A stretch of DNA of 64,000 nucleotides, taken from contig CM074762.1 of NCBI GenBank assembly GCA_037355855.1, positions 4,216,001 through 4,280,000 of the forward strand. Reading direction: 5' to 3'. How positions within the stretch are numbered: the stretch's first letter is position 1; the number at the start of each line of letters is the position of its first letter. The position numbers and the translations under genes are program-made. The notes under the pieces are model-generated. The model worked only from the letters and a program-made list of their open reading frames with translations, was not told the origin of the DNA and searched no databases. This document shows positions 9,041 to 63,076 of the stretch, in pieces. This DNA comes from Pseudo-nitzschia pungens (taxonomy: Eukaryota > Bacillariophyta > Bacillariophyceae > Bacillariales > Bacillariaceae).

Positions 9041-9419
9041 TACTAGGATCGTGAGGTCGTTGAAAGGAACAAGGGCTTCGATTGAAAGAAACGGAATCAA
9101 ATACACCCGGTTGGTTGGAATCACTTACCGGCTAGGAAAAGATAGTAGGGAGAAGGGCGGGAAACAAAGAACACTGACGTTCTATTCTTAATCCTCGACG
9201 CGAAAACCAAGAACTTGACCGTGTTGAAGTGTTTACCAATCGGTATTCCTTCTTGTACCACTTCAAGGAGGTTATTCGGACTAAAATACAATGAGCAAAA
9301 GAGCCTACCGTAGGGCGGGTTCTAGTATTCGTTCTCGTGACGGAGTGCAATAAAGCAACTCTACTCAAAATAAGTCGGATTGTGAATCGAAACAGCAGTG
9401 ATTTGTGTTATTCCTGAAA

Positions 9420-9990
9420 ATAGTGAGTGGAGCACAAAAAAAAGTGATTACGGGAAGGAGCAAAATACAGTGATTTAATACAGTGATTTGCAAGAGCAAA
9501 ATACAGTGATTTAATACAGTGATTTGCAAAACCGGTGGGTGTCGTCGGCTCGTTTGACACCCATATTGTCATAATGACGTAAAAGATACCAAAAAATAAT
9601 AATAATGAGCCGATTAGAGGTACACTTAACCCTAATAGTGGTTCAACAACGAATTTACAGTGATTTAATACAGTGATTTGCAAGAGCAAAATACAGTGAT
9701 TTAATACAGTGATTTGCAAAACCAGTGGGTGTCGTCGGCTCGTTTGACACCCATATTGTCATAATGACGTAAAAGATACCAAAAAATAATACTTCGTAAT
9801 AAATCAAATAATATTGTCATAATGACGTGCCGGTACCATAGGATCGAATTTTTTTCTACTGCTGATATTCATGTACAGTTTGTACTGCAAAAATTCGAAT
9901 TTTTTGATTGGCTCAACCGGTGGGTGTCGTCGGGTCGGGTCATTATTGACACCCATACCGTACAGTATTGTCATAATGACGTAACGCTAC
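9420..9990. repeat. Short tandem and direct repeats
   Basis: Runs of ATACAGTGATTTGCAAGAGC occur at 9468-9535 and 9657-9720. A block starting GGTGGGTGTCGTCGGCTCGT and including ATTGTCATAATGACGTAA occurs at about 9533 and 9723 and, degraded, at about 9920. Confidence 0.8.
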
Positions 9991-44860: not shown

Positions 44861-46841
44861 AATGTTCAAATTAATTAAATTAATTTACGAACTAAATCAA
44901 TCATATGTTTCATACCTATTAAGGATATCTTCTGCAAAAAGCCTAAAAATGGCCTTCATTTTTGTATCAGTAATAGATGACCTTAGACTCGTTCAAAACC
45001 TGACTTTTATTGAATATTCTTGTTTCAAACACATTAAACTATAATGTAGGTATTTGAAATATAGATTAGGATTGATTTTTGATGGAGTTATTACTATCTG
45101 AAGTTAAGGTATTTTAACTAGTGTTTGTTAGTTAAAAATAAATATAGGAAAGAAAAATGAGGACAGTTTTTGTTATTTGTGCACGCATGGGTAATTTTTT
45201 TTTTCTGATTTGAATGGAGTTTTGTACGAGAGCCCGCATTCGTGACGCACCCCTGTCTATTATCACCCCTGTTCTGTAGTAAGGTTTACTCGCACTTTCA
45301 ATTACAAAATTACAAAGTACTTTACCGGTTAACCTTAGGAGTACAAGGTACAAGTACAAAAAAAATACTTCCTCCGTTCCGAAATAACTGTGCGCTTCTC
45401 ACATACAAGCTTGTCTATCAATCAATTTTCAACCAATTCAAATCGTTCTTTTTGGGTTAAACTCTCCTCAACGAAGTCCTTATGCCTGGTTAGACACTAG
45501 TAAGGCTAGTGGTATTGCTCTGCCTTTCATTAGGACTTGAAAAGTGCCCGTTTTGCCCTTCAAATGTGATTTTACCGGTTGAAGGGGTTCCACCTGGCAT
45601 TTGAACCTCGGGGAAGGTTCTTTCGATAGCTGAGACAATGAACTTTTGTCTAGGTATAGGTGATAGAAACAGGAAGAGAGTTCTTGTACCTTCATCTTTG
45701 TTCCAAAGAGACCCATTTTAGTGCCCGGGTGATGTGTCCCATTTGCATTGTTTTGGTCTACAGGGGACCCAACGTACGCTAAAAACGGAGTTTTTGCCAG
45801 TTTTTTTTTTCAATCGTGCATTCGATCGAGTTTTTTTGTGTGTGTTTTTACACGGTGAAAAAAACACTGTACAAAAACACGTGCTTTTTCTCTTTACAGT
45901 TCATGTGCACCTATTTTGTCAACTCCAACACAGGCATTGCATCTCTCTTCTTCTTCCGTCTTTGCTCAACTCCAAGTCAGCACCACCACGAACCCTTCTC
46001 CCTCTTGAGCAGTGACAGGGACCATGTGGGCAAGTCAGTAGAAAGTGTACTGGAACCAGATGCCGACGTGCTACTCTACAGAGCCCTTGACCAAGATGGG
46101 CGGCAACAAACGACGACAAACGATCAACCAAAGACGGCGTGGACCCTTCTCTTTTGGTTGTAATGACAGGGACAACACAGGCCCGCCTGTACTATGATTA
46201 CTGCAACTGCATACCACTGTTGTACTCTACGTCCGAAAACTGTTTCGCGACCCCTCCCAAGAATTTATTTAGGGGGGTCGCGATTTATTCCTGGCTCATT
46301 TTGACGTAGCTTTTTCCTAGCTCTCTCGCGATTCGCAACCCCAATCGCGACCCAGTAACTACCTCAATTACGAAAATTAAAAAAAAAATAAAATAAAATT
46401 CATACTCGACCCGATTTTTTTTAAGACTCAATTTTTTTTCTTCAGTCACTTAATCAAATTAATCAACATTTAAAAAAAAAATATTTGTTTTCTCAAAATA
46501 ATCCCCCCCTTCCCCCAATTTTTTTCAATCTGACTCATTATTACCGACCCTACCAACATTATATATTATGAGACTGTTGCAGAAATTCACTCTCAAAAAT
46601 TGATTTCTCATCCCGACACCAGTATTTCCCATCACACCCCTCAAGAAATTCATCAGGAAAATCACAATTATTACCCGAATTACAGGAATCGCGACCCCCA
46701 TGAAAAAAATTTTGAAACACTATGATGCAAAATATAAGTCTTTCTTTTGATAAATATTGATACTACTCTAATAATTGTTTATTCTCTGTTCAGTTTTCTC
46801 ACACACTCACACACAAATTTTGGTTCGATCTCGAACAATTT

Positions 46842-48442
46842 TTAAAGACTGGCCAACGCGATATCGTTACTGCCAGTAAAGTCCTCCTCATCTTCATTTA
46901 CATCTAGCAAAGCTTGTAGCTCCGGACTAATGTATTCAGTAACTTCTTCCTCCTGCACCCAGTCCTCATCGTACGGACTGTTGTTGTTGTCATCGTTTTC
47001 ACTCTCGCGACGGAGCCTCTCTCTCAATCTTTCCTCACACTCTCTACCCGTTCTCGGATTCTTCCTCAGCACATCAATCTCCCTGCACAAGTTATTGAAC
47101 AGTGCTATACCTTCCTTCGACCATGATTGCTCCTCTCCACTGTATTGGTCACAAAATTTCTTTTTCTTCCTCCTTCTCACAATCCTGCCACCACCGTTCC
47201 TTTTTTGCTCAACATGATTCACCCAAACATCATACTCATTATGAATCATCATCAATGCAAATGCTTCATCGCTTTCTGTGAATATTTCACTCAGCAAACA
47301 TGTCGTCTTTTTCCATCTGTAGCCCCTCTCTTTTGGAGAGATGCTTGATAGAATCCGAGTCACAAAGTAATAAAAATCATCATTTTCACTGTTGTTGTCA
47401 TACCTTCTGTACCCTGGGTTCAGTCCCAGCTTCTTTCTACTACTAGTTCCACTACTACTAGTACTCTCCCGCATCACAATCTCCACTTTACCTGGAAAGG
47501 AATCTGGCACAATGCCTTCGCGATCAAGTGTGTCCTCTAGTACGACGCGTACACAGGAGTAGAAAGTGTTAGAGTAGCAGGGGAGGATATACCATCAATC
47601 TCCACCAAGCAGTAATAGCAACAAATGTATTCACTTAGTAAGCACGTACCAAGAAAATGTTTTCTAGCCAAAGTTTGAGCATTGTGCCGCAGATTTGAAA
47701 GACCCTTGTACACCAACCTTCTGTTAAACCCATAAAAAATTTCAAATGAAATACCATGGGGTGGAACGACAGCTCGGGACGCAATCGCTTTCTTCAAAAT
47801 TTTTTTGACCTTATTTTCATCCACGATAAACTTCATGCTACGAAACCAACTATTTCTTATGTGCCGTGTCAACTGTGCTTCCAAACCCGCGTCTTTTTGA
47901 TGTTTCTTAAGTTTATCCGATTGCGCCTTAGTTATCTCTAATTTTGCTTCACTTACGGTTCGTACCATCTGTGGCTTTGGCTTCTTCCCTGTTGTAGTTG
48001 CCTCCAGCGTGGGTTCTTCTTTTTTTGTATCCTTCTGCAGTGTTGTCACATCCCTCTCTAAAGAAGCTACTTTCTGCTGGCTCTCTTTTAGCTGTTGCAG
48101 CAATGCTTCGTATGTGGGTCTTGGTGTTGTTTTGGTACCGGTCGTAATCGGTCTTGGTGTAACAACACCCGGGGCGGCGGGGGGTTTGTTGGTTGGTGGT
48201 GTGGTACCAACGAAAACCGCGGTCGGGTTGTTCTTGGTTCTTTTATTTTTTTCATCAGCACCACCTGAGGTGGGTGGTAGTTTTCTACTTGTCTTTGGGT
48301 TCGATTTCGTAGGGGTAATACTAGCAGTAGTATCAGCACCTGTATTAGCATTGGAGACAATTTTTCCACTTCGATTCTTTCTTGGTGCATTGCAATCTGA
48401 TTTCTTTTCTATTTGCTGATACTCATCATATACGGTAGGCAT
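46842..48442 (-). CDS. Unrecognised transposon protein, 495 aa, two exons
   Basis: Exons on the minus strand are 48442-47650 and 47536-46842 (intron 113 bp, donor GTACGT, acceptor CGTACTAG), 1488 nt and 495 residues. The ATG at 48442 (M-P-T-V-Y-D-E-Y-Q-Q) was chosen because the frame upstream is hydrophobic and unlike the rest. The first 150 residues are Thr/Pro/Lys-rich. Then comes a short coiled coil (Y-E-A-L-L-Q-Q-L-K-E-S-Q-Q-K-V-A-S-L-E) and a globular basic region (R-N-S-W-F-R-S-M-K-F-I-V; F-E-I-F-Y-G-F-N-R-R-L-V-Y). Exon 2 has G-Y-R-W-K-K-T-T-C-L-L-S-E-I-F, a basic R-R-R-K-K-K-K stretch and an acidic tail. I do not recognise a family. Position and basic character suggest a DNA-binding accessory protein of the element; that is inference. 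Confidence 0.65.
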
Positions 48443-49976
48443 TGTTTCGGGCGTCGGAAGTAAAAAAAATATGTGAAGCCATAAAATTGTGAACACAGTT
48501 TTTTCACTACTACTAACAAAAAACCTGTTAATCATTTTCCTTTCACCATCCCCGCAACTTGTAATGGCATACACTTCACTATGGAAATTGTAGGTGACGT
48601 GGCCAAATGTTTTAGAGGATTCCCACCCGCGCCATAATTTTTTTCTATCCACCTGTGCACATCTCTGTTCATTCTCTACTGTACCCATACGGTATTCACT
48701 ATTGATTGTATTTTTGGCTCTACTATTCCCTGCGGGACAGTAGGTAGAAATTACTAGTAGTAGTACTACTACATAAGTATACCAGCAGTAGCAGAAGTTC
48801 AACTACTACGCATACGTACAGTAGTACCGGCAGTGATAGAACCAAATATATAATGACAATATCCACGGCTGAAACAAAAGGATCGTATTGTCTCTGTGGT
48901 AGCATTGTGGTCATAAGGGTCAGATGTGGCAGGATGGAATCCTTCACAATAATTATATTTTTCTTTGCCAATGGGCTAGATTACTATTTTTTTTGTCAGA
49001 TTTTTCATCCTGCTTTATTCTATTTTATATTCTTGGACATACCAGCAACCAAACAATCACCATTATCTTACATAGCCACTTGTGTATCCGTGCATTTTTA
49101 ACACTCTAAGACAAGAAAACATTGGTCAGTATGATGCCTGTTCCGGAAAAAAGCATATTTTGGGGTGGATTTTGGTCTACCGAGGATTTTTTTTACAAAG
49201 CAAGTGTCACATCCAAAATATAAGTTGCAGCAACTTTATACCCTTTTAGTATTCTAATAGATGCATATACTGACCATTATTCAGTGCGGACCACAAATAA
49301 TCTAGGACAATTTCACCCATGCACAGGAAATATGCACATTCTGTGCTGTAATTTTGTGTACTCAGAATTTTTCTCAGAAATCAGAACTTACATCCGAAAT
49401 ATAATTGGTAGCAACTTTATACCCTTTTAGTATTCTAATAGATGCATATACTGACCATTATTCAGTGCGGAACACAAGTAATCTAGGACAATTTCACCCA
49501 TCCACAGGAAATTTGCACATTCTGTGCTGTAATTTTGTGTACCCAGAATTTCTCTCAGAAATCAGAACTTACATCCGAAATATAATTGGTAGCAACTTTA
49601 TACCCTTTTAGTATTCTAATAGATGCATATACTGACCATTATTCAGTGCGGAACACAAATAATCTAGGACAATTTCACCCATCCACAGGAAATTTGCACA
49701 TTCTGTGCTGTAATTTTGTGTACCCAGAATTTCTCTAAGAAATCAGAACTTACATCCGAAATATAATTGGTAGCAACTTTATACCCTTTTAGTATTCTAA
49801 TTGATGCATATACCCACCATTATTTAAAGTATTCAAAAAGAAGTATTCAAACATTACGAATTATTCACAATTTATTAGATAAAATTACCAAATCACATTA
49901 TACTATCTTTTATAATATTCCATGACACGCCCGTTGTCTTCCTTTTCTTGTTGGGTGTACCAAATTTTGCAGACTC
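48443..49976. other. Spacer inside the 14.8-kb element, includes a 181-bp array
   Basis: 1.5 kb without a gene. Bases 48443-49190 may hold the promoter of the 495-aa gene. Bases 49200-49850 are a tandem array of about 3.5 units anchored by CAACTTTATACCC at 49231, 49412, 49593 and 49774, spaced exactly 181 bp. The rest is AT-rich flank of the next gene. Confidence 0.8.
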
Positions 49977-52127
49977 CTACTTCTGTTGTGCCCCTGCTGG
50001 AGGCTTTTTCTCTGGCTTCGGTGGACCTGGTGGAGGATGCTTCTTCATATGAGGTGGAAGGTTGGACGTTGAGTTCTGTATCCTCTTCCCCTTTTTTTTC
50101 CTTTTCTTCTTTTTCACTCTGTCTTGTTCAGTCTCCTCTTCCTTGTTTTGAACACTATTACTGAGGCTTGCTAATTTCTTCTTCTCGTCCATCCTTCTTT
50201 TCTGGTTGACGTTCTCGTGGGCGACTACGAAACAATTTTTCTTTCCTTCACGGATCGCACCATTCCCTTTCTTCTTGTAGCGTTGCCGCTCGCCCATCAC
50301 AGCATTCACCGAGCGACGGAACAACCCTTTTTCTTCTGTTGTCATAGCTTTAGTCTCCTCCCGAACGATATCTTCCATCTGTTTCTCCGTCCACTTTTCT
50401 ATTTCAGAGTGGGACACACTCTTGATGTCATCACGTTTGAATTTCCCATTTGTTGCCGGCGCAGCATCACCGAAGTTCCTATCGAAATAATCTTCCACAG
50501 TTTGTGTGTGATATGGTCCGGTCTTTTTACATTCATTCTCCTTAAACCAATTGCCAGCACTGATTAATTGATCACCAATTTTTTTTCTATATAGGTCAAA
50601 TGCGGGATCGACAAGAAATGTGAGTTTTGGTCCTTTCTTTCTCTGATAGTCCCAATCGGACTCAAAATTTGATTTAGCACTTGTTCTTGGAATGATGTCG
50701 TCGTAGGAACCCAAAAAGTTAATAAAGCCGGGACTATCTTTTTGTTTTGTCATATCTCCATAGGTGCTGCAAAACTGAAGTTCTTTTACGTTTTTTGCAA
50801 CCGTTGTTAGTTTTCCTCTAACGCCTTTGTCTTTCATGTTCTTGGCATTTTTTGGCTGTGTACTTTGTTTGCGGCCGAGCCTGCGTTCAATCCGTACCTC
50901 GTTATTGTCATAGTCAATTTTTTTGTTTTTTTTTGGGTTTGTGGCTTCGTTCGCTTTAGGAACGTCGTCCTCCACAGCCCCGATGGCTTTGTTTTGGTTT
51001 GTGGCTTCGTTCGCTTTAGGCTCGTCGTCTTCCCCACCCCTGTCGTTGGCTTTGGCATCGTCGTCTTCGCTCGAATCATCGTCCTCGCTCCAATCGTCGG
51101 CACCACGAGCCTCGAAAGAATTGTTGGTTTTTCGGTCATCGACGGGAGGATTACCTTTCTTTTCCTTTCGATCCTTGTCTTCGTCCTTGCTCGAATCGTC
51201 GTCCTCGCTTGAATCGTCGGCACCATGAGCCTCGAAAGAATTGTTGGTTTTGCGTTCGTCGTTGCCCTTGGCCCCGACGGGAGGATTATCTTTCTTTTCC
51301 TTTCGGACCTTGTCTTCGTCCTTGCTCGAATCGTCGTCATTATCTTTCTTTTCGGTTCGGTCCTCGCTGAAATCATCGGCACCGCGAGCCCCGAAAGAAT
51401 TGTTGGTCTGGTTCGGAGGATGGCGAAGAACCTCCTGCAAAGTGATATTTGTTATCACACTTACCCAGTCTTGGTCATTGTCAGGATCGTCGGTTCCCTT
51501 AGCCCCGACGGAAGGATTAGTTTTATTTTTTGCGTTCTCTTCATTATCCGCAGGATCGTCGATTTCCTTAGCCCCGACGACAGGATTAATTTTATTTTGT
51601 TCATCATCTTCGCCTTCGTTATCTTTGGGATCGTCGGCTCCCTTAGCCCCGACAGGAGTAGGATTTGTTTTGGTTGTTTCGTCTTTTTTTTCCCATGGGA
51701 AGTCAGGCATTCGCGGATGGGTGTCACGTTGCGATTCCCGGTCGTTGTCTTCATCCTCAGTGTCTTCATTCTCACTTTCCGAATCACTGTCTTCATTCTC
51801 ACTTTCCGATTCTCCATCAGAAGATTCTTCAGTGTCGGTGGAATCTTGCTCAAGTTCCTCCTCATTCTCTTGTTGGGGTTGTTCAGTGTCGGTGGAATCT
51901 TGCTCAAGTTCCTCCTCATTCTCCGATACTGGTGGAGGTACATATTTGTCACGAGCAGGTACTGCTTCAGCACCATCATCACTGCTAGATGAATCCTCAC
52001 GATAGTTTCGTTCGGGGGGTGAACGGGGTGATCTTCTCGGAGGATTTGTTGTTCGGCGCCGTGTGGACCGAGATGGATTTCCAGACCGACGAGATGGTGA
52101 ATCTCTATTCCTTTTGTGCCTTGCCAT
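49977..52127 (-). CDS. Unrecognised transposon protein, 716 aa, acidic repeats
   Basis: A single open frame from the ATG at 52127 (M-A-R-H-K-R-N-R-D-S-P-S-R-R). The Arg/Ser-Pro-rich start of about 45 residues is followed by a very acidic region (about 45-400) with degenerate repeats such as N-N-S-F-E-A-R-G-A-D-D and P-V-G-A-K-G-A-D-D. A conserved-looking globular part (about 420-640) follows: Y-G-D-M-T-K-Q-K-D-S-P-G-F-I-N-F-L-G-S-Y-D-D, W-D-Y-Q-R-K-K-G-P-K-L-T-F-L-V-D-P-A-F-D-L-Y and T-V-E-D-Y-F-D-R-N-F-G-D. The tail is basic and Pro-rich. Bases 51434-51463 read, on the minus strand, as a complete GTAAGT...TTTGCAG segment of 30 nt and may be a minimal intron or just coding. Family unknown. 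Confidence 0.6.
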   Translation of the reverse strand: MARHKRNRDSPSRRSGNPSRSTRRRTTNPPRRSPRSPPERNYREDSSSSDDGAEAVPARDKYVPPPVSENEEELEQDSTDTEQPQQENEEELEQDSTDTEESSDGESESENEDSDSESENEDTEDEDNDRESQRDTHPRMPDFPWEKKDETTKTNPTPVGAKGADDPKDNEGEDDEQNKINPVVGAKEIDDPADNEENAKNKTNPSVGAKGTDDPDNDQDWVSVITNITLQEVLRHPPNQTNNSFGARGADDFSEDRTEKKDNDDDSSKDEDKVRKEKKDNPPVGAKGNDERKTNNSFEAHGADDSSEDDDSSKDEDKDRKEKKGNPPVDDRKTNNSFEARGADDWSEDDDSSEDDDAKANDRGGEDDEPKANEATNQNKAIGAVEDDVPKANEATNPKKNKKIDYDNNEVRIERRLGRKQSTQPKNAKNMKDKGVRGKLTTVAKNVKELQFCSTYGDMTKQKDSPGFINFLGSYDDIIPRTSAKSNFESDWDYQRKKGPKLTFLVDPAFDLYRKKIGDQLISAGNWFKENECKKTGPYHTQTVEDYFDRNFGDAAPATNGKFKRDDIKSVSHSEIEKWTEKQMEDIVREETKAMTTEEKGLFRRSVNAVMGERQRYKKKGNGAIREGKKNCFVVAHENVNQKRRMDEKKKLASLSNSVQNKEEETEQDRVKKKKRKKKGKRIQNSTSNLPPHMKKHPPPGPPKPEKKPPAGAQQK

Positions 52128-52489
52128 GATGTTTCACAGTGAACTGATGCTCCTGTATGAAAATTGAAATTATGTTTGTTCATCTTAAAGGCTCCGAAGC
52201 ATGAATTCATTAGGCAATTGCTTGATCGTAACAATTGATCTCAAAATGTTTAAAATGTAAACACGATGTGATCCTTTTTTTCACCGTGGAACAAAACAAG
52301 TTTGAACTGAATGTTTTGGAAACTGAAAAAAAACCGTTGTCCATAGGCACTACTAACAGTCAAGGGTCGGTCATGCGTCGTGGGCAAGGTTTTGTTTAGG
52401 GGGTAATAATAATGATAGGAATAACGTATTGGTTTGCAAAGAAATCAATGTTACTCCCACCACTTTCTGTTGGCATCGTGTTAAAATGT

Positions 52490-52880
52490 ATTGTAGTACA
52501 GCCTACTGCAAGCAACATACAGTGGTCACTACTAGCAAATAATATTACAGCCTAGTAGTGCTAGCAACATACAGTGGGCACTATTATGATGCTAGCAAAT
52601 AATATTACAGCCTAGTAGTGCTAGCAACATACAGTGGGCACTATTACGATGCTAGCAAATAATATTACAGCCTAGTAGTGCTAGCAACATACAGTGGGCA
52701 CTATTACGATGCTAGCAAATAATATTACAGCCGAGTGCTAGCAACATACAGTGGGCACTATTACGATGCTAGCAAATAATATTACAGCCGATTGCTAGCA
52801 ACATACAGTGGGCAGTATTATGATCCCTAGCAAATAATATTACAGCCGAGTGCTAGCAACATACAGTGGGCAGTATTATG
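52490..52880. repeat. 60-bp tandem repeat
   Basis: About seven units with AATATTACAGCCTAGTAGTG, CTAGCAACATACAGTGGGCA and CTATTACGATGCTAGCAAAT; later units lose a few bases in the middle. Confidence 0.9.
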
Positions 52881-53429
52881 ATGCTAAGGTTAATACCATA
52901 CATACCATACCGGGACAACCAACCACAACTTCGCGCCAAAAGATTTGTACCAGTACCGTACGTACAGTGTACACAGTACTGGAAACCTACACATCCCCTG
53001 CATACAAGCCTCTGCAAACCAGTCGTTTTTTGTACTCAACAGCATGTACAGTTCCTACTGCAAGTTACGTACACTGATGTCATTTTTTCATGCAGTCTGT
53101 ACACCCGGTACCGTAGACTACTGTAAAGTACGTAACTATCGCGGTGAACAGTACTTGATCATCGCAAAATCGATTTTCCGCCCCACATCTCCCTCGTCAA
53201 AATTTTCATAATTTTCATTTTTGTTTCGGTGTTGGAATTTTCTGGCCGGTCCAGTTGAAAGTGAACCACGAGGCGCCTGGTACCATCTTGGAGAGACAAA
53301 CAGCAAAGAGAGTACGGAACAGGCCATTCTTGAAATCCTTGCTGTTTTCTTTTGTTATCAAGGTAGGGTGGGCTGCAGTCCTCGAATCACCTGGCTTACC
53401 CAGATATCTACGAGTACGACGCTAGGGAC

Positions 53430-54640
53430 AACAAATATCGATCGTAGGAGGGACGACAACAACAGGAGGTACGACGAGAAAAGGAGGTACGTGCATCGGA
53501 ACAAAGAGGAACGATGGGAACGAGGAGGGACGACGACGAAGAGGGACGACGAAGAAAATCGTAACTAACAGTCCGTTGTTGTTTTTGTACATTAGCAAGA
53601 GGGACGACGACGACGATCGGAACGAGGAGGGACGACGACGACGATTGGAACGAGGAGGGACGACGACGACGATCGGAACGAGGAGGGACGACGACCGGAA
53701 CGAGGAGGGACGACGACGACGATCGGAACGAGGAGGGACGACGACGACCATCGGTACGAGGAGCAACGACGACGACCATCGGAACGAGAAAGGACGACGA
53801 AGCAAGGTACTTCACTTGAACCGATCGGGACGAAGAGGGACGACGAAGAAAATAGTAGCTAACGGTCTGTTGTTTATTTTGTACATTCAGAACAGTGAGG
53901 GGGGACGACGACCATTGGAACGAAGAGGGACGACGACGACGATCGGAACGAGGAGGGACGACGACGACGATCGGAACGATCGGAAAAGGTATGCATAGTT
54001 TCCTAAAAATATTCTCGTATTTTCTGCCTCTAAGATGTAGGTGTACGGTGTATTTTTGATTTAGACTCGTTACTACTAGTACTAACATTTTTCACATCTA
54101 ACCACCGGTTACGACGATTTCAGGGACGACGACAACGACGATCGAAACGAAGCGCGACGACGATTCCGGACAAGCGCGACGACGATTTAAGACGGTCGCA
54201 ACGTAGCGCGACGACGATTTCGATCGATCGACGACGATCGAAGCGAAGAGCGACCACTATTTCAAGCAACGAAGACGATCGTAGCGAAGAGCAACGACGA
54301 TTTCACGGACGACGACAAAGACGATCGAAACATAGCACGACGACGATCTCAGTGACGACGAAGACGATCGAAGCGAAGAGGGAAGCGAAGGGCGACGACG
54401 ATTTCGATCGTAGCGAAGAGCGACGACGATTTCAGGGACAACGACAAAGACGATCGATTTCAGGGACAACGACAAAGACGATCGAAACGTAGCACGACGA
54501 CGATCTCAGGGACGACGAAGACGATCGAAGCGAAGAGCGACGACGATTTCAGGGACGAGGACATAGACGATCGAATCGAAGAGCAACGACGATTTCAGGG
54601 ACGACGACGACGACCGAAGTGAAGAGCAACGACCCTCACA
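53430..54640. repeat. GAC/GAA-rich minisatellite upstream of the 723-aa gene
   Basis: Two variants. GGGACGACGACGACGATCGG + AACGAGGA occurs at 53430-53990. A unit of about 40 bp, ACGACGATTTCAGGGACGAC + GAAGACGATCGAAGCGAAGAG, occurs at 54115-54640 and runs to within a few bases of the start codon. A segment of about 60 bp (TAACRGTCYGTTGTT and TTTTGTACATT) is duplicated at 53560 and 53855. Long minus-strand frames here are repeat artefacts. Confidence 0.88.
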
Positions 54641-54642
54641 TA

Positions 54643-56814
54643 ATGACACGATCCACATCTTCCAAGAGGAACAAAAAAATTGGGACCGACCTTGTTGAAA
54701 ACAAGGAGATAAGGCAGGAGAGGTTGAGGAGAAAGGACGAGCAGAAAAGTAAGGACAATTCGTGCCGGTGCAATTTGGGTCGCATAGCGACGTTGACGCA
54801 GGCAAGTACAAGGGGGAAGAAGGGCACTAAGAACTGTCGACGCACCTCTGATGGAATTGTTTGCACAAGGTGTAACACATTTTCTTGCAGAAAATGCTTG
54901 CAGTCTATTTTTAGACTCATAGAAAAAAGGACAGGCGGTAGCAGCGTCGATCTGCCTGATGGGATCAAACAAATGAAAAATGCTTTGATTGATAACCGGA
55001 GAGAGGTATCAGTTTGTCACGGCTGTATTTTTGTTGATCAAAGAGAGGAGGTACTGAGGTCCCATCGTCATTTCATTCATGTGGAATGCAGACAAGTGCA
55101 ACTTAGGTTTGATGGTTACATCGTGTTACCAGAGTACAATGTGATAATCGACACCCCTCTTATCTCGGAGAATGTCATTGATTGCCATGGATTCGGGAAG
55201 GAGCCAAACCTTGCTGGAGTGAAACATTTTGTCGTGGGGTACAATCTTGCTAGAGAAGCTGCAGCAATGGATGTTAGACCCAGCAAACTTACCAACAATT
55301 CCGACACGGTGAAAACAAGTGTGGTGAATGTCATGTGTCCCGGGATTGCCAATCCAAATAAAAAAAGAACGTACAGGGTGCAACTCATCGTAGTGCATGG
55401 TTCCCAGTGTACCAAAGGCATCAATGAAGTTCCGGAATATACAGCGGGATCACTCAGCAATTCCAGGGTATTCTCAGTTCAGGATCGTGGGGAAGAATGT
55501 GACGTTACCATCATTGTTGGAAGTTTTTCTGAATCACCTAAATTGGGACAGAAACAGAACCTGCTTTTGGCTCGGTTCTATCATGGAAGTGATGCTCTTC
55601 AAATGAAGCAGAAGGAGGTTCGATCGTTGTTTCTGGAAGTTCAGAAAATGACGAGAACTAACCACATAGAAAGGAGTCGTTCTGGGGGCAGCAGTGGAGT
55701 ATACAGTGGACCAACTCGAGCCCTCTTCCAGATGCTTGAAAACCCGAGTGTTACACCTAGGAAGGGAAATGCAACCTTCGTTGTTCCAGACGGGCACAAA
55801 ATACGTGTGTTTTACATCAACAGAAGAGGACGTCCAATTCATTGGGCATATTCCAACCCTCAGTATGGAGGACAGATCGGGCCGATCACCAAGGATTTGT
55901 TTTCGCGATACAAATTCTTTCAGCCATTCACAGCGTCGAAGATAGTCAGTGCATTACTTCTGAGAGAGCTGAGCAACATTGTTGTTGAAGGAGTGGAAGG
56001 GGTGCTGAATGTGGTACCTCTTGCTGTTGCGCGAGAGTTGAGAAACCACAAGAAAGCCATGACCCGTGCAGGTTCGAATGACATTGGTGAAATTTTGTAT
56101 CAGTTTTGTTCCCTTAATTCCACAACACTTGTGCAACACCCGGTCGGTCTTCACTATGACAAATTTGGTACAGACGAAGAAGGTACTGTTTTCAGTCTGG
56201 AGAACAAGATTGGTTTTGCCACCAAAAACCCTGAATTTCACAGAAAATACGGAATGGGAAGGGGAGGTCGTGGTCCAGAAACATTTGTGTTCTGTTTGCT
56301 TGATTGGGGCAAACACAGAAGAGCAAGACGTGTGGCCGAAGTTAATTTGCAGGCAGCGCAAGTAGAGCTCGCGCAACGACAGGCTGAGTGGCAAGCTGCG
56401 TTGGACCGTTGGCTAGAAATTGATGAGAATCAAAATGCCACTCAGGATGAAAGGTATGAGGCAGAGGCGGAAGAAATGGCAACCCAAGCAGCTCGTGATG
56501 AAGCCGTGGCAGCCAGAGACGCTGCCCAAGTTGCCTTTGATCAAGCAGATGCGGCCGTTGCTGAGGCTGATGCTGCAGCCAATAATCCCCCTGGGAATGA
56601 CGATGAGGATGCTGGTGATGCTGGTTCTGATGCGGCCGTTGATGAGGCTGATGCTGCAGCCAATAATCCCCCTGGGAATGACGATGAGGATTCTGGTGAT
56701 GCTGGTTCTGATTCAGATTCAGATTCGGATGCGGAATTCTACGACTCCGATTTGGAACTTTCGGAATCAGACACGGAGGCAGAGGACGTTTCAGAGTTCA
56801 GGCGGAACGACTGA
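54643..56814 (+). CDS. Unrecognised transposon protein, 723 aa, Cys-rich N-terminus
   Basis: The ATG at 54643 (M-T-R-S-T-S-S-K-R-N-K-K) begins a single-exon frame. A basic start is followed by a zinc-binding-like cluster: S-C-R-C, then I-V-C-T-R-C-N-T-F-S-C-R-K-C and V-C-H-G-C (residues about 45-145). A large globular region then has R-G-R-P-I-H-W-A-Y-S-N-P-Q-Y-G-G-Q-I-G and L-H-Y-D-K-F-G-T-D-E-E-G-T-V-F. The last 150 residues are an Ala/Glu-rich helix followed by an acidic tail with a duplicated segment (A-D-A-A-A-N-N-P-P-G-N-D-D-E-D). No known catalytic motif was found. It is the only plus-strand gene in the 14.8-kb element and is hemmed on both sides by the same minisatellite. Function unknown. 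Confidence 0.65.
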   Translation: MTRSTSSKRNKKIGTDLVENKEIRQERLRRKDEQKSKDNSCRCNLGRIATLTQASTRGKKGTKNCRRTSDGIVCTRCNTFSCRKCLQSIFRLIEKRTGGSSVDLPDGIKQMKNALIDNRREVSVCHGCIFVDQREEVLRSHRHFIHVECRQVQLRFDGYIVLPEYNVIIDTPLISENVIDCHGFGKEPNLAGVKHFVVGYNLAREAAAMDVRPSKLTNNSDTVKTSVVNVMCPGIANPNKKRTYRVQLIVVHGSQCTKGINEVPEYTAGSLSNSRVFSVQDRGEECDVTIIVGSFSESPKLGQKQNLLLARFYHGSDALQMKQKEVRSLFLEVQKMTRTNHIERSRSGGSSGVYSGPTRALFQMLENPSVTPRKGNATFVVPDGHKIRVFYINRRGRPIHWAYSNPQYGGQIGPITKDLFSRYKFFQPFTASKIVSALLLRELSNIVVEGVEGVLNVVPLAVARELRNHKKAMTRAGSNDIGEILYQFCSLNSTTLVQHPVGLHYDKFGTDEEGTVFSLENKIGFATKNPEFHRKYGMGRGGRGPETFVFCLLDWGKHRRARRVAEVNLQAAQVELAQRQAEWQAALDRWLEIDENQNATQDERYEAEAEEMATQAARDEAVAARDAAQVAFDQADAAVAEADAAANNPPGNDDEDAGDAGSDAAVDEADAAANNPPGNDDEDSGDAGSDSDSDSDAEFYDSDLELSESDTEAEDVSEFRRND

Positions 56815-57420
56815 TTCAAATAGAAGATCGAAGAGACGACCACGAAGACAACCGAAGCGAGGAGCAACGAGCAACGACGACTTCAAAGAGCAACGACGAT
56901 TTTAGGGAGGACGACGAAGCGGAAGGCCATCGGAGCGAAGAGCAACGACGATTTCAATGACGACGAAGACAATCGATGCGAAGAGCGACGACGATTTCAA
57001 GGACGAAGAAAGAGGAAGGCTATCGGAGCGAAGAGCAACGACGATTTTAGGGAGGACGACGAAGAGAAAGGCCATCGTAGCGAAGAGCAACGACGATTTC
57101 AATGACGACGAACAGAATCGAATCGAAGAGGGACGACGATTTCGAGGACGAAGAGAGAGGAAGACAATCGGTGCGAAGAGCGACGACGATTTCAAGGACG
57201 AAGAGGAAGGCTATCGGAGCGAAGGGCAACGACGATTTTAGGAAGGACGACGAAGAGAAAGGCTATCGGAGCAAAGAGCAACGACGATTTTAATGACGAC
57301 GAAGATAATCGAATCGAAGAGCGACGACAATTTTAATGACGACGAAGACAATCGATTTCAATCACGCCGGAAGCAAATGATACAAAGATTTTTTATTGTT
57401 TAGTTACCTGCCTAGTGTAG
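56815..57420. repeat. GAC/GAA-rich minisatellite downstream of the 723-aa gene
   Basis: About 13 units of the ACGACGATTT(C/T)A + GGACGACGAAGA + CGAAGAGC family seen upstream of the gene, so the coding region looks like an island within one array. Confidence 0.88.
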
Positions 57421-57426
57421 AATGGT

Positions 57427-60400
57427 TCATTCAGCAATGCCGGTGCTGTCTGATTCCTCTCGTTGTACGGGGCAAGCGGAGTAGAGGCTCTCGTAGGTAG
57501 TATAGGTCATAGAATTATTCCTCTTTTCAAAGAATTCGAGCCATTGCAATCGATTGTGAACAACGAACCACCGACCATTGTTTACTGGTTCCGCATTCTC
57601 GTCCAGTTCAGGAACAACTGCCAGTTCCGAAAGAATAGTGTCAGTGTTAAATAAATATAAAGTATTGTCGAGATAGCCACTTTTTACAAAGTGAGATGAT
57701 GTAGACCTTGGATCTTCTCTAAACTTTCTGACAACCGCGTAGATGCCATCTGAATCAACATCGTATCCATTCACAGCCGATGTGGGTTGTTTCAAATCTT
57801 TCACGTGCAGAAAACACAGCATTTGACAGGGGATTTCAGTGTTGTCATCAACTGCAAACATTGCCCAGTCAAACCATACACTGTTAACTTGGCCTGAATC
57901 AGACCTGTATGAGGGGTGACATCGGAACAGGTAGTTGACGCGATTCACAGAATCCCATCTGTTGTGTTCGGTGAACCCAAATATGCTGGATCTGTCATCC
58001 AGCAAAGGAAGGACGGAGTCACAAACAAAATCTAGTACAATTGTTGAATGAAATGGTTTGTTGTAGTTTCGTCTTAAGTCCCATTTCATTGAACCTCTAG
58101 TTCCGTCACGAAAAATGGTGAAACGGGACCCAGACTGTGGAGGACGAGGGGAAATGACTTTAGGATCACCACCCACTTTCTTCAACTTGTGATGAGAGGT
58201 TGCGAGTCGAAGGAGAGATGCTTCTTCTTTCCGACAGGTTGTCTGATGGACTAAGGTTGCGGCATTTTGTTGAGTGTTTTTGGATGGTGCTTTTATTTCT
58301 GTCTTGTGGTGACTTTCACTGTATGCAGAATCGAAACCTAATGTTGGACCCCACAGACTGATGTACTTTGGAATGTGAAAGTAGAGGTGATTTTTGATCA
58401 GTTTTGTTCCCATTCCCTTCCTAAGGCAGGTGCCATTGATAGAGTTGAGGAAATGAATAATGGTTTTGGGTAGATTTTTGATGCACTTTGTGGTAGGCCG
58501 GCCGTGTTTGAGAAATTCTTCCATTGAGATGATTTGTTCGATGACATCAATGTGTTTCTTCACAAATGAGGGGTCGCTCAAAACTGCATTGCCGGATTCA
58601 GAAACCAATGTTAGAAGAATCGAAATCAGCATACCACTGTAATCGTGCCCCTCTTTTTTAGTGACAGATAGAAGATTGGAGCTGAATTTAGTTCTGGGAA
58701 AGTCACGATCCGACTGCCTTGACAGTAGGGCTCCATATTTTTGAGAGACATGCCCAATTGTATTTACTGTGGAAACACCGGTCTTTAGGTGATCAGCATA
58801 CGGGCATGGTATTGAACCCTTCATCAGTTGCTCCAGGGATTCTACCTCTCGTTTGGCACACCCCAGCTGGTGCATGTGGAGGCATTCACCGGGCGTGGCT
58901 AGGTGGATATTGTTTACATTGGTACCAAAGTTGAGACCGTGGAATGCATTTCTGATTTGGTGGTGAGAAATATTGTTGAAATATTCCTTGGTGGTGGTGG
59001 CATCTGAGTCTGGAAATGTATGAAAATCTGATGGGACCCAAAGAGAGGCTGTTTGTTGTGCTGATGGAATATTTATGTCCTTGGTGGAACAATTACAGTG
59101 TCGGCAAAGCTTTTGTACACCACCCGACCGGGAACCATATTTGCCACATAATTTATCATGCAGTTCGGTGTCACCGATGACATAGGCTATTGCAAATTTC
59201 ATTTTGACTTGCCACAATTGGCCGGCATATGGGAGAAAATCCCATTGGATGCCTTCGTGGGTGGACTCACATGCTTCTTTGAAAGATCGGAGCGCCACTT
59301 CTAGGGCATTATGGAGGTTTTGGATTGATTCTTTTGGAGATGGTTTTCTTGAATGGTGGATGCTCTCCAAATCAGAGTCAGGATGAAAATAGATTGTTGT
59401 CCATGCTTCCGGCCTTTTCCTGGTTTCGATGTTGAATATGCCTAGGGTCATGTTGAGTGGAGTCAGTGATAGTCTTCCGTGCGCATCCAAGCTAATTCCA
59501 TCCATGTAAAAAATGATGGGAACAAGGATTTCAGAATTTTCTTCTATGCAAAGGGATCTCCAGGAATCCGACCACCAGGATCCGTGATGCAACTCTGTGA
59601 TGGGACAGGAATCAGTTCGAACCGGGAAATGCTCTGGTGACAAGGGGGTGTTGCTGTTGGGGAATGACAAATTTTCTTCCATCATTAAATCTGGGTTCGA
59701 CAGAAGGGAATACAAAGCATCCAGAAAAGAGCGGACATATATTTGAGCAGGTTTGTGGTCGGGAAGCCAATTCACAATTTTGGGCTCAAATTTTGGTTCG
59801 GAAGATATGCCAAGATTTTTTTTTATTTCTTGGAAAATGGCATCACGTTTTCTTGTTGGTGTAACCTTGAAATCAAAACCGGGAAGATTGTTGCTGTCTT
59901 TCGCCCAATTGAAAATGGTTTGATAAGTGGAAAGAGGTAGCTTGTATTGTGATATAATGTTGAGGAGGTTGATTTCGGCAATAAGTTCCGGGCGGGGTGG
60001 GAACAGAGTGCGATTCCGGAATGTTTCCTCTCTTTCGTTTATGGAAATGGTGGTGCTTTTCATGATTTCGGAATCAGATATTTCGGTGTCGGAACTGGCA
60101 TCAAAATGGTCTGAGGCATCAACAGCGGAATCGATTGCATTCATTTGTTCCTCATTTTCAGCCATATGCGATTCGATTGCCTGTCTGTCCATGGGTGGGA
60201 TCAATACATTGGCGATCACTTGAGGATTGAGTGAGGTATGGATAGAAGTTGTTGCGGCGGTGTTCGTTTCGGCACGGGAGGGGGGGATTTGTGGTCCATT
60301 CTGTGTCATTGTCAGTCCATACTGAGATGGTGTGTGTCGGACCAAAGGGAGGGTGACTTCTGCTTTCGCAGAAGAAATAAAATCCATAAGATCGTTCTTA

Positions 60401-60618
60401 ACATAATAAGTTCGGCAATCGCTGTTGGAATAGAGATGCCTGGAGAGGCCTTGAGATACATATCGGTAGGTGTGAAAGTGGCTCGATTCTTGTTTGTATC
60501 CCTTGAAGGATTTTGATTTTCTTCTTCTTCCAGAGGCAATGCAGTTGCGACAATGGAATGTCTTGGGTATTCTGGGCTCATTGGCAAAGTGCCTTGGGTC
60601 GGAGGAGGCTTTCGGCAT
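57427..60618 (-). CDS. Plavaka/CACTA-like transposase, 1063 aa
   Basis: A single open frame from the ATG at 60618. Residues 22-72 form a zinc-finger-like N-terminus (F-H-C-R-N-C...L-S-R-H-L-Y-S-N-S-D-C-R-T-Y-Y). An acidic linker follows, then the transposase core: V-P-I-I-F-Y-M-D-G-I-S-L-D-A-H-G-R (first Asp 373), W-Q-V-K-M-K-F-A-I-A-Y-V-I-G-D-T-E-L-H-D-K-L-C-G (Asp 483), a cysteine motif L-C-R-H-C-N-C (505-510), and T-P-G-E-C-L-H-M-H-Q-L-G (574-585), corresponding to the conserved P-x-[DE]-x-L-H region. The order and G-D...D-K-L-C-G-x-Y-G motif are what I know from Plavaka proteins, a branch of the CACTA/EnSpm group. The C-terminal 200 residues are of unknown role. The gene looks intact. Confidence 0.72.
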   Translation of the reverse strand: MPKASSDPRHFANEPRIPKTFHCRNCIASGRRRKSKSFKGYKQESSHFHTYRYVSQGLSRHLYSNSDCRTYYVKNDLMDFISSAKAEVTLPLVRHTPSQYGLTMTQNGPQIPPSRAETNTAATTSIHTSLNPQVIANVLIPPMDRQAIESHMAENEEQMNAIDSAVDASDHFDASSDTEISDSEIMKSTTISINEREETFRNRTLFPPRPELIAEINLLNIISQYKLPLSTYQTIFNWAKDSNNLPGFDFKVTPTRKRDAIFQEIKKNLGISSEPKFEPKIVNWLPDHKPAQIYVRSFLDALYSLLSNPDLMMEENLSFPNSNTPLSPEHFPVRTDSCPITELHHGSWWSDSWRSLCIEENSEILVPIIFYMDGISLDAHGRLSLTPLNMTLGIFNIETRKRPEAWTTIYFHPDSDLESIHHSRKPSPKESIQNLHNALEVALRSFKEACESTHEGIQWDFLPYAGQLWQVKMKFAIAYVIGDTELHDKLCGKYGSRSGGVQKLCRHCNCSTKDINIPSAQQTASLWVPSDFHTFPDSDATTTKEYFNNISHHQIRNAFHGLNFGTNVNNIHLATPGECLHMHQLGCAKREVESLEQLMKGSIPCPYADHLKTGVSTVNTIGHVSQKYGALLSRQSDRDFPRTKFSSNLLSVTKKEGHDYSGMLISILLTLVSESGNAVLSDPSFVKKHIDVIEQIISMEEFLKHGRPTTKCIKNLPKTIIHFLNSINGTCLRKGMGTKLIKNHLYFHIPKYISLWGPTLGFDSAYSESHHKTEIKAPSKNTQQNAATLVHQTTCRKEEASLLRLATSHHKLKKVGGDPKVISPRPPQSGSRFTIFRDGTRGSMKWDLRRNYNKPFHSTIVLDFVCDSVLPLLDDRSSIFGFTEHNRWDSVNRVNYLFRCHPSYRSDSGQVNSVWFDWAMFAVDDNTEIPCQMLCFLHVKDLKQPTSAVNGYDVDSDGIYAVVRKFREDPRSTSSHFVKSGYLDNTLYLFNTDTILSELAVVPELDENAEPVNNGRWFVVHNRLQWLEFFEKRNNSMTYTTYESLYSACPVQREESDSTGIAE

Positions 60619-60949
60619 GGTGGTGTGTGTTTTTGTGATGCGATTCTTAGCTGGGGTACCGGTATGTGATGTGACACCACTGAAAAAAAAAGTTCACAAA
60701 GGTGCACGACGTAACACTTTGGTGTGATTGAAGTAAATTGGATTAAAAATTATTTGTTGTGTTGAGTCAAGTGTGTCAAATGTGTAAAATGGAATGAAAG
60801 TGTGAAGAGGGACTGAATGTCAGGGTCTAGAACAGAACATTTCCGTCGACCCGTTGGGGGAGTTGAGAAAAGGGAGAAATGTGGTTGAGAATAATGGAAA
60901 AAAGTTGAGAATAATAAAAAAGAGGTTGTGAAATAAAAAATTGGGGTTG

Positions 60950-61029
60950 AATTTTTTTTAGACAAGTCGCGATGGGGTCGCGATCGGGTCGCGATTGGTC
61001 GCGATGGGTCGCGAAACAGTTTTCGGACG
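60950..61029. repeat. Subterminal GGTCGCGA repeats and right TIR of the 14.8-kb element
   Basis: GTCGCGA occurs five times in about 55 bp (GTCGCGATGGG, GTCGCGATCGG, GTCGCGATTG, GTCGCGATGG, GTCGCGAAACAG), the last merging with the TIR. Likely transposase or accessory-protein binding sites (inferred). Confidence 0.85.
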
Positions 61030-61381
61030 TACATGGAAATCAACTGGGAGAGGCAAACGTTTGATCCACAAAAAGCCGTGCGTTCGATCGTCCATAGGGC
61101 TGCAAAAAGCGGCGCGTTCGATCCACCTCCTTTCCATCGACGCCAGGCCCGACCTGTACAATTTGGTATTGCTGTACACACCCCAAGCTTGGGAAAACAT
61201 GGCGCAGACTAGCAGGGGCGCCAGCAGGCAAGGCAACAGCAGCATGAGCAACAACAGCAGCAACAACAACAGCAACGATTGAACGATCGATCAAACGATC
61301 GACCGATCAAACGTCGACAATCAACCATCTCACTAACCACAGGTTCTTCTCTCATAACCCCCACACTACATTAAGAACAAG

Positions 61382-63076
61382 ATGAACTTTGTTCCTGGAT
61401 TGGAAGTGCTGTTGGCAGCTCTCAATCAGGAAGAAGAGAGAGTTGACAGCTTTGACTTTACAAGTGCCGAAGCAGACAGCATAGTGGTCCATGGCAGCAA
61501 AACCGGCGGCGAAAGTAGCAAAACTGGTACAACCTCCAGTGGTACAACCTCCAGTGGTACAACCTCCAGTGGTACAACCTCCAGTGGTACAAGCATTTGG
61601 GAACAATTTATTGCCCAGCAACTCCCTGCCAATGGTGGTACAAGTACCCGTCCCACCGGTCCCAAGAAGAATCGAAACCTGACAAACAGCGAGCGACTCA
61701 AGGTATTGCTGCTGCTTGTTCCACACGAGTCGCCCGGTGGGAGATTACACCGGAGTGTCACTTGCAAAGCTGCTGAGTTCTTCCAGATCCATCCAATGAC
61801 TTGCAGAAGGATTTGGAAGAGATTTAAGGAGACTGCTACCAAAGACTGTCCCGCCGGAAATGTGTCTAACAGGAGAAGCAACTGTGGCCGGAAGTTGAGA
61901 TCCACTGAAGACCTGGAGGTCATTCGATTGATACCACACCACCAGAGGGGGGACTTGAGGAGTCTTGCAGGAGCTACTGGTATCCCTAAGACTACTCTTT
62001 GGCATCTTCTAGGGAGAAATGTGCTGAGACGGCATACTAGGACTACAAAGCCCCTACTGACGGAGGAGAACAAGGTGCAGCGAGTTCAGTGGGCGCTATC
62101 CCATCTGCACCATGATGGGAGGTTCCAGAACATGTTCAACACAGTCCATGTAGACGAAAAGTGGTTCTATATTTGCTGTTTGACTGTGGGAACATACATT
62201 TTGACAGACGAGGAACCTCCTCCAGAGCCGAAATGTAAGTTGAAGCGATATCGGCTGAAAGTCATGTTTTTGTGTGCTGTTGCACGCCCCAGATATGATA
62301 CTGCCCGCAGACGGTGGTTCGATGGCAAGATCAGTTGCTGGCCGTATGTTTACAAGGAAGCTGCACAGCGGACGTCAAGGAACCAGGTACGAGGTACGCT
62401 GGTCACCAAGACGAAGAATGTTGATAAGGCGGAGTACAAACGAATGATGTTGGAGAAGGTCCTTCCAGCAATCTACGCCAAATGGCCTGACCCGAACAAG
62501 GCGATCACTATTCAAGAAGACAATGCGAAGCCTCATCATGCTTGCACTCGGGATGCAGTACGAGAGAAAGCTGTACGAGACGGCTGGGATATCACCATCA
62601 AGCCTCAACCACCTAATAGTCCTGATTTTAATGTCCTCGACTTGGGATTTTTTGCTTCCATCCAAAACTTGCAGTACAAACAGCAAACACCCCATGGTCT
62701 TGACAGGATTATCAGCTCTGTCCAGAAAGCTTTCGATGATTCACCTCGCAGTATGATGAATGATGGGATGTATTCTTGTCCCTCCAGTGTGCTTTCTGGG
62801 ATTCGTTGTCTGTTGAACACTTACAAGCTCAGTCACATGGGTAAGGACAAACTTTGGAGAGAGGGCCGTCTTCCTACCTCTATTACATGCCAGGACCCTA
62901 GTCTCATTGCAAGAGGTCTTGCAGTGTTGGAGAAGGCTTGCAATCATATTTGTACTGTTCCTGCTACTAATAATACTAGTGATACTACTACTGGTAGCAA
63001 TGAAAATGGTCTACCGGTCGCGAGTGAAAATCCTGTACGTTTTAGTACTGGAAACGCCGTACTCACAACAGTGTAA
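61382..63076 (+). CDS. Mariner transposase, plant-type DD39D
   Basis: 564 residues, ATG at 61382, intact. The N-terminal extension has a T-T-S-S-G repeat (15-bp unit, 61530-61590). A helix-turn-helix region (about 100-220) follows: L-T-N-S-E-R-L-K-V-L-L-L-L; A-G-A-T-G-I-P-K-T-T-L-W-H-L-L. Catalytic motifs are V-H-V-D-E-K-W-F-Y, I-Q-E-D-N-A-K-P-H and N-S-P-D-F-N-V-L-D-L-G-F-F. Thirty-nine residues separate the second Asp from the Asp in N-V-L-D, the DD39D spacing of plant mariner-like elements that mobilise Stowaway MITEs. The protein excises and inserts the element at TA. All three acidic residues are present, so it may be functional, although the element is now split by 14.8 kb. Confidence 0.93.
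   Translation: MNFVPGLEVLLAALNQEEERVDSFDFTSAEADSIVVHGSKTGGESSKTGTTSSGTTSSGTTSSGTTSSGTSIWEQFIAQQLPANGGTSTRPTGPKKNRNLTNSERLKVLLLLVPHESPGGRLHRSVTCKAAEFFQIHPMTCRRIWKRFKETATKDCPAGNVSNRRSNCGRKLRSTEDLEVIRLIPHHQRGDLRSLAGATGIPKTTLWHLLGRNVLRRHTRTTKPLLTEENKVQRVQWALSHLHHDGRFQNMFNTVHVDEKWFYICCLTVGTYILTDEEPPPEPKCKLKRYRLKVMFLCAVARPRYDTARRRWFDGKISCWPYVYKEAAQRTSRNQVRGTLVTKTKNVDKAEYKRMMLEKVLPAIYAKWPDPNKAITIQEDNAKPHHACTRDAVREKAVRDGWDITIKPQPPNSPDFNVLDLGFFASIQNLQYKQQTPHGLDRIISSVQKAFDDSPRSMMNDGMYSCPSSVLSGIRCLLNTYKLSHMGKDKLWREGRLPTSITCQDPSLIARGLAVLEKACNHICTVPATNNTSDTTTGSNENGLPVASENPVRFSTGNAVLTTV

Follow-up and report, generated by a model that had tools for sequence, protein, structure and literature searches.

The transposon and its four genes

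We are interested here in a large transposable element that lies within a 64,000-nucleotide stretch of the diatom Pseudo-nitzschia pungens (assembly GCA_037355855.1, contig CM074762.1, positions 4,216,001 to 4,280,000, forward strand), which we call the window. The element is bounded by terminal inverted repeats, is 14,800 bp long, occupies positions 46230-61029, and contains four genes in the order G-V-S-T from the left. The original prediction, made from the letters of the window alone, had given these boundaries, perfect 24-bp inverted ends, and products of 495, 716, 723 and 1063 amino acids (aa). On re-reading the sequence we find the boundaries to be exact and all four genes to be present. 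The left tip (46230-46253, plus strand) and the right tip (61006-61029, minus strand) are identical over 24 nt; an inverted-repeat search returns one pair of 29 nt at 97% identity, which includes the flanking TA. This dinucleotide stands on both sides, at 46228-46229 and 61030-61031, as the two copies of a target-site duplication.

The heptamer GTCGCGA, counted on both strands, occurs four times in the first 500 bp (46230-46729, as GTCGCGA or TCGCGAC), once in the next 500 bp, five times in the last 500 bp, and not at all in the intervening 13.3 kb. The subterminal clusters that had been predicted are thus confirmed, and the right one includes a tandem cluster at 60966-61014, found by motif and repeat search.

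Gene G lies on the minus strand in two exons, 48442-47650 and 47536-46842, joined across a 113-bp GT-AG intron by a predicted splice into a protein of 495 aa. It is followed by 3.4 copies of a 181-bp satellite (49209-49824), by gene V (49977-52127, minus strand, 716 aa), and by a 60-bp tandem repeat upstream of V (52532-52886). Minisatellites of the GACGACGA type precede gene S at 53446-54633 and recur between S and T at 56886-57356; S itself (54643-56814) is the only gene on the plus strand and encodes 723 aa. Gene T, which encodes the 1063-aa protein, occupies 57427-60618 on the minus strand.

In order to check the boundaries against unoccupied sites, we joined the two flanks (448 nt, with the junction at 250) and found that they match other genomic places unbroken: in 15 of 46 match rows the alignment (69-83% identity) runs across the junction and reaches 25 bases or more into either flank. 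The element had been described as sitting inside a mariner whose flanks confirm its ends. The boundaries hold, since empty sites are matched across the junction. The flank is a repeat that is tentatively a mariner: the neighbouring 564-aa open reading frame (ORF; 61382-63076), which belongs to this repeat, matches DUF7769, and its match to HTH_Tnp_Tc3_2 stays under the cut-off. Rfam returns nothing at gathering score over the window.

T is a Plavaka transposase

Against the Pfam Plavaka profile (PF18759), T reaches an E-value of 1.2e-5 and 25.1 bits, slightly missing the curated cut-off of 26.3. Its relatives share 26-60% identity with it, the profile is found in 41 of 120 listed relatives, and those that carry a species name come from Pseudo-nitzschia and Cylindrotheca fusiformis. 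Across 54 aligned rows, D373 is present in 53, D483 in 54 and E768 in 54. Between the second D and the E lies a C(2)C motif formed by C505 (54 rows) and C508 (53 rows). H572 (53 of 54) and H581 (54 of 54), in the stretch where an H(3-4)H motif is described for Plavaka, are conserved as well.

By sequence, T has no match in the PDB at E-values up to 1. A confident structural model matches RAG1 and Transib over residues 209-816 (58171-59994, minus strand), a region that holds D373, D483 and E768. A C-terminal domain at residues 824-1020 (57559-58149, minus strand) is BAH-like by fold match only. Profile, relatives, the DDE triad and the modelled fold agree with the Plavaka-like transposase of the original prediction, and the profile and structure searches it had proposed lead to Plavaka, not to an unrelated superfamily. 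We conclude, from sequence and model, that T is a Plavaka transposase of the CMCT clade with a predicted RAG1-like DDE core.

A family with variable 2-bp target duplications

We searched the whole Pseudo-nitzschia pungens assembly, which comprises 66.9 Mb in 28 contigs, for further copies. The 13-base tip CGTCCGAAAACTG occurs 208 + 212 times, as against 0 + 1 for a reversed-pattern control. Pairs were formed from left-type and right-type tips that face each other at most 30 kb apart, using four longer tip patterns; these matched 84, 54, 124 and 89 times, with 84, 54, 100 and 89 matches listed, and all counts of tip pairs below rest on the matches listed, that is, on 327 of 420 tips. Among these we obtain 123 paired ends. 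The search for paired ends across the assembly, which had been proposed along with the original prediction, therefore reveals a real, tip-defined family.

Exactly two bases are duplicated at the flanks in 115 of the 123 pairs. When tip partners are shuffled (500 shuffles), the mean number of apparent 2-bp duplications is 16.3 and the maximum is 27, and a three-base duplication fits only one pair. In the remaining eight pairs, the tips may have been wrongly matched or the copy rearranged. The duplicated dinucleotides are TA (31), TT (13), AT (12), TG (12), AA (11), CA (11) and eight others (25 together), and C is enriched one base outside the duplication (93 of 230 flanks). Elements of the Tc1/mariner type insert at a fixed TA target, a rule that we reject for this family given that TA accounts for only 31 of 115 duplications. 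Thus TA on both sides, as had been noted, is correct for the copy in the window but is not a fixed target; because most duplications are other pairs, it is one case of a variable 2-bp duplication.

Three copies of T at other loci differ, within that group, by a synonymous divergence (dS) of only 0.004-0.006. The family has been mobile recently, near-identical copies being found at different places and 2-bp duplications at most paired ends.

These results allow the element to be compared with the published termini of its relatives. Its duplication of exactly 2 bp lies within the 2-5 bp of the CMCT clade. Its tips begin CGTCCG: they are not the TGT..ACA of PlavakaA, although the 2-bp duplication agrees, nor the CATCA..TGATG of PlavakaB, which has 2-3 bp duplications, nor the 5'-CAC..GTG-3' of CACTA/EnSpm. 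The evidence supports placing the element in the Plavaka lineage; its tips, by their sequence, fit neither fungal subgroup.

Lengths and gene content of the tip pairs

Pairs flanked by a duplication (115) fall into several length classes: 84 span 1.2-9.3 kb, 68 of them measuring roughly 5.4-7.1 kb, while 3 span 11.5-13.4 kb, 18 span 13.6-16.6 kb, and 10 exceed 20 kb. All four genes are found, in the same order G-V-S-T, in 22 of the 34 tip pairs of at least 11 kb, where gene matches are lower bounds for large families and order was judged by position, with strands compared in part. Within the 13.6-16.6 kb class, 16 of 19 pairs carry all four. Co-occurrence, which the original prediction had suggested examining, is thus common; it is not fixed, for 6 of the 34 large pairs match none of the four genes. 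With at least 22 tip-bounded copies that carry all four genes (intactness being checked on T), this is a workable family.

Among the 89 pairs shorter than 11 kb, 85 have no match to T, S, V or G, and 4 have some match. Copies lacking the accessory genes do therefore exist, a prospect that had been raised from the outset, but T is gone from them too; they are accordingly to be seen as deleted or refilled passengers rather than as simpler autonomous elements.

Two types of inner cassette within common ends

The four genes differ greatly in how far their genomic matches diverge from the copy in the window. For T and G the identity is mostly 92-99%, with outliers down to 83% (T) and 76% (G). S forms main groups at about 97-100%, 82-83%, 72-76% and 55-64%, between which some pieces lie. 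V has one high group and another at 27-36%, besides some old pieces at 58-64%. We call the types A and B, those of S being A1, A2, A3 and B. Of 43 matches to T, 29 have both S and V nearby and could be scored, whereas 14 lack one or both and were left unscored. Among the 29, 18 are A for both genes (S 72-100%, V 84-100%), 11 are B for both (S 56-64%, V 27-34%), and none is mixed.

The 181-bp satellite follows the type of V. We typed 40 arrays, taking one row each from 90 rows, with a cut at 80% identity and V sought within 2.5 kb; 33 of the 40 lie near a V, and of these 24 are A arrays with A and 9 are B arrays with B.

Comparison of three other full elements with the copy in the window locates the change of type along the sequence. 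The element at C7:3079731-3095092 is 95-96% identical over 5.2 kb at its left and 4.1 kb at its right, with S at 78%; the one at C4:6161446-6178011 is 93% identical over the left 2.7 kb and 95% over the right 3.7 kb, with the satellite at 77% and S at 68%. In the element at C8:1678039-1692478, the first 2.4 kb are 94-100% identical per 400 bp, followed by a satellite zone at 74-86%, S pieces mostly at 70-72%, and a right 3.7 kb at 96%. Between A and B types, V gives no DNA alignment at all in these comparisons. The borders of exchange are found near 48.6-49.0 kb, in the interval separating G from the satellite, and near 52.9-54.5 kb and 56.6-57.4 kb; the latter two are in or beside the GACGACGA-kind minisatellites, which flank S on both sides in the same direction.

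These alignments show a mosaic: the outer modules (the left end with G, and T with the right end) belong to one common pool, while the inner module (the 181-bp satellite with V and S, or S alone) is in each copy one of several old, diverged alleles. The distinct lineage with its own set of helper proteins that had been proposed therefore stands as regards the unusual tips and the joint presence of the genes in most large pairs; it does not stand as a fixed set, since V and S are exchangeable between A and B.

Exchange versus fast evolution of S

One might suppose instead that A and B are separate families that merely seem joined, because T, G and the ends evolve slowly and S and V fast. The S protein is indeed more diverged than T (matches at 41-100% as against 83-100%), and there is a precedent in the VANDAL elements of Arabidopsis, with a VANA transposase and a VANC anti-silencing protein (PMC5735166, PMC10398659): according to published passages, VANC is more variable than its transposase (PMC5735166). 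We therefore turned to synonymous sites, in comparisons that cover T and S. In six pairs of elements, dS is 0.041-0.142 for T and 0.345, 0.688, 0.699, 1.93, 1.99 and 2.01 for S, the last three being near saturation; in round figures, the gap is one of 0.04-0.14 versus 0.35-2.0. In the same pairs the ratio of nonsynonymous to synonymous divergence (dN/dS) ranges over 0.13-0.24 in T and 0.15-0.21 in S, so that constraint on S, in comparisons with the window copy, is as strong as that on T. The reverse case also occurs: in the B elements L017/L034, dS is 0.127 for T and only 0.015 for the S genes (L046/L040). Fast evolution of S in place of exchange is rejected by these synonymous rates, which are discordant in both directions.

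The tree of T leads the same way. It was built by a quick method from 29 of 30 rows (L036 has no long frame). The B label, carried by 10 rows, requires 6 changes on this tree, all forced by starred branches (a count that is approximate, for a reason given below), and a single B clade is rejected by the approximately unbiased test (p = 5e-61). All subtypes taken jointly require 11 changes among 27 typed rows. Together with the sharp fall of identity at the borders, these results make two separate families a very improbable account for the copies compared. Discordant dS and six B changes on the T tree indicate, rather, that the middle of the element has been exchanged repeatedly.

The explanation that we consider reasonably probable is that the element is an autonomous cut-and-paste transposon of the Plavaka lineage with a mosaic build, whose inner cassette is exchangeable. 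Several points weigh against it. T is itself probably recombinant, and the switch counts on its tree are approximate for that reason. With shuffled labels the mean is 8.5 changes and 28 of 500 shuffles are as low as 6; since the observed 6 is below this mean, there is some clustering of the types, such as one expects of recent copies. The movement of T and G onto old cassettes would be indistinguishable from the exchange of cassettes. In all 33 typed arrays the satellite lies within 1.6 kb of V, so that simple linkage can explain why the two travel together. Four close B-type pairs of S, with few changes, have dN/dS of 0.33-0.85, and selection on recent B copies is accordingly not clear. Finally, the activity of the element is predicted from its sequence, and the roles of S, V and G are guesses, because none of the three matched a known family.

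The orphan genes G, V and S

The original prediction could not assign the proteins of 495, 716 and 723 aa, and G, V and S likewise matched no known family in our searches. Genomic match rows, which are pieces and not copies, number 66 for S, 104 for V and 92 for G (exon rows). No Pfam family lies above its cut-off for any of the three, and neither NCBIfam nor PHROGs gives anything of weight, G having been scanned as two ORF pieces (best PHROG E-value 0.0035). S and V have no meaningful match by sequence in the PDB. In a large protein set, at E-values up to 0.001, none was found for S or V among the 7,994 and 7,979 top word-sharing candidates, respectively, a weak negative because only the candidates sharing most words were scored.

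Over 11 aligned copies of S, the residues C43, C65, C74, C77, C82, C85 and C125 are among those that are invariant, as is the motif H504-Y-D506. The protein has a Cys-rich N-terminal part and an acidic C-terminal tail. We rejected the idea that S is a TET/JBP dioxygenase, or any other enzyme with a name, because Pfam, PHROG and PDB gave no weighty match; zf-RING_5 (3 of 11 members, best E-value 0.16) and DUF2102 (7 of 11 members, best E-value 0.0077) were too weak to use. A fold of S predicted without relatives, with a mean predicted local distance difference test score (pLDDT) of 33, was likewise left unused.

At C8:3385669, C5:4917736 and C3:5643086, B-type matches to S stop near residue 655, each with one in-frame TAA, suggestive of a lineage whose tail is shortened. 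In G-like genes at C1:5986544-5988142, C4:5616395-5617999 and C7:4352257-4353846, both exon matches fall in open frames of 585-590 aa, where G itself would give two short ones.

Are V and S of any use to the element? They could be passengers, that is, captured genes or remnants without a role in its life cycle. The short pairs without any of the four genes imply that V and S are unneeded in cis, neither protein has a known domain, and dN/dS reaches 0.85 in the close B-type pairs of S. Yet the four genes are held together in one order in the majority of large pairs, and S shows the low ratios given above in all six comparisons with the window copy, so that we regard passengers as unlikely.

Another proposal gives the accessory genes a part in transfer between cells or species and sees in the element a degraded virus-like transposon. 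Its size, its several orphan genes and the old, diverged cassettes within one genome speak for this. Profile searches, however, gave no packaging, polymerase or capsid match; in viral contigs, peptide patterns for S, V and T did match but no related locus was confirmed, a search of limited reach with two or three patterns for each protein; and in its ends and duplications the element conforms to a CMCT cut-and-paste transposon. We give this proposal hardly any credence.

Proposed mechanism

Under the mosaic transposon that we favour, T would recognise the tips and the GTCGCGA-rich ends and would cut and join there, as its family and fold lead one to expect. It would move both the element and its short derivatives; the 2-bp duplications left behind are observed, whereas catalysis by T is presumed. 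G, which is constant across cassettes, is the best candidate for an end-binding helper and might act at the conserved GTCGCGA ends in the manner of TnpA. Homologous recombination or conversion may bring about the exchange between copies, with entry through the conserved flanks and the minisatellites. V and S may be regulatory or anti-silencing factors that act with a partner, either the satellite carried by the element or a factor of the host; a change of cassette would then alter regulation but leave transposition compatible.

Among systems that are understood, VANC with its tandem repeats comes closest, and it suggests that V, S and the satellite may provide element-specific anti-silencing or self-regulation. 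By this analogy we hold such a role to be possible, though we would not yet favour it. Still more tentative, and in our judgement rather doubtful, is a two-layer system, in which a shared chassis (the ends, G, and T with its chromatin-reader-like BAH domain) bears an exchangeable identity cassette composed of the 181-bp, nucleosome-length satellite, V as the protein recognising it, and S as effector. Old alleles would then persist since the host silences the common type, and swaps to a rarer cassette would escape, much like the immunity modules of phages. Since the A and B cassettes amount to a natural swap of alleles in a near-constant element, they offer a testable system for possible escape from silencing with an unchanged transposase.

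Relation to known elements

VANDAL elements belong to the MULE superfamily, and we found no sequence shared between them and the element in the window. Maize En/Spm, which encodes TnpD and TnpA, has a repeated subterminal motif and short deleted derivatives that are moved in trans. Our element resembles it, by layout only, in having a second protein, a repeated subterminal motif and short derivatives, and differs in that G has no profile above cut-off. The likeness to VANDAL consists in a conserved transposase next to a variable accessory protein, and in noncoding tandem repeats that vary between relatives; the published passages describe gain and loss of repeats with rapid divergence in VANDAL (PMC5735166), whereas here whole old alleles are exchanged.

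Closer comparisons are with Plavaka itself. In the published passages, fungal PlavakaA has TGT..ACA ends and a 2-bp duplication, of which our element shares the duplication, and PlavakaB has CATCA..TGATG ends, 2-3 bp duplications and, in some elements, a TET/JBP gene (PMC12730594). The transposase family, the C(2)C motif between the second D and the E, and the possibility of extra genes are shared with Plavaka (PMC12730594, PF18759). The element in the window differs in its tips (5'-CGTCCG..CGGACG-3'), its subterminal GTCGCGA clusters, its exchangeable cassette, and three orphan accessory genes without a Pfam TET/JBP match. EnSpm-Plavaka elements are reported from a green alga (PMC12633428), and brown and red algae contain giant EnSpm/CACTA elements of more than 10 kb that bear accessory genes (PMC12477816). 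The latter, compared by description only, share with ours the size, a CMCT transposase and the accessory genes; block exchange is absent from the published passages on them (PMC12477816).

A literature search over titles and the starts of abstracts, with subscription literature mostly outside its scope, returned no description of a diatom Plavaka element, and none of multi-gene cassette exchange within a cut-and-paste DNA transposon family. The present description puts on record a Plavaka element that has four genes, tips of its own and three orphan protein families. With internal controls from one genome, it indicates that an inner block of several genes can be exchanged in a cut-and-paste transposon whose transposase stays in a single pool.

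Interiors of individual copies

In the short derivative L039 (6.5 kb, fully read), segments of the left end's first 600 bp survive at 85-95% identity, as do some 360 bp at the right end (92%); the interior consists of minisatellites and a 181-bp array. In L005 and L062, a stub of about 105 residues of the T N-terminus remains. L062 is large and geneless, and the 8 kb of it that were read contain minisatellites and a 181-bp satellite besides the stub.

Both geneless copies that were read inside carry a third kind of this satellite (L039:1900-3305 and L062:7154-8001), of the same period, about 89% alike between the two and about 57-69% identical to the A and B kinds where alignable. A different interior is seen at C4:6300584-6320919, where G exon 1, accompanied by B-type satellite, occurs three times at spacings of about 3.1 kb within one tip pair; we read this triplet as an internal tandem duplication. 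In the C4 element L040, a 510-aa ORF (7925-9457) between satellite and G has the look of an RNase H by eye and is probably a retroelement piece inserted into that copy.

Copies are also nested, as with C1:3145818-3152816 within C1:3144443-3167162. By eye, the tips look crowded in parts of contigs, for example C1 at 3.1-7.5 Mb, C4 at 5.2-6.5 Mb and C7 at 1.2-4.7 Mb.

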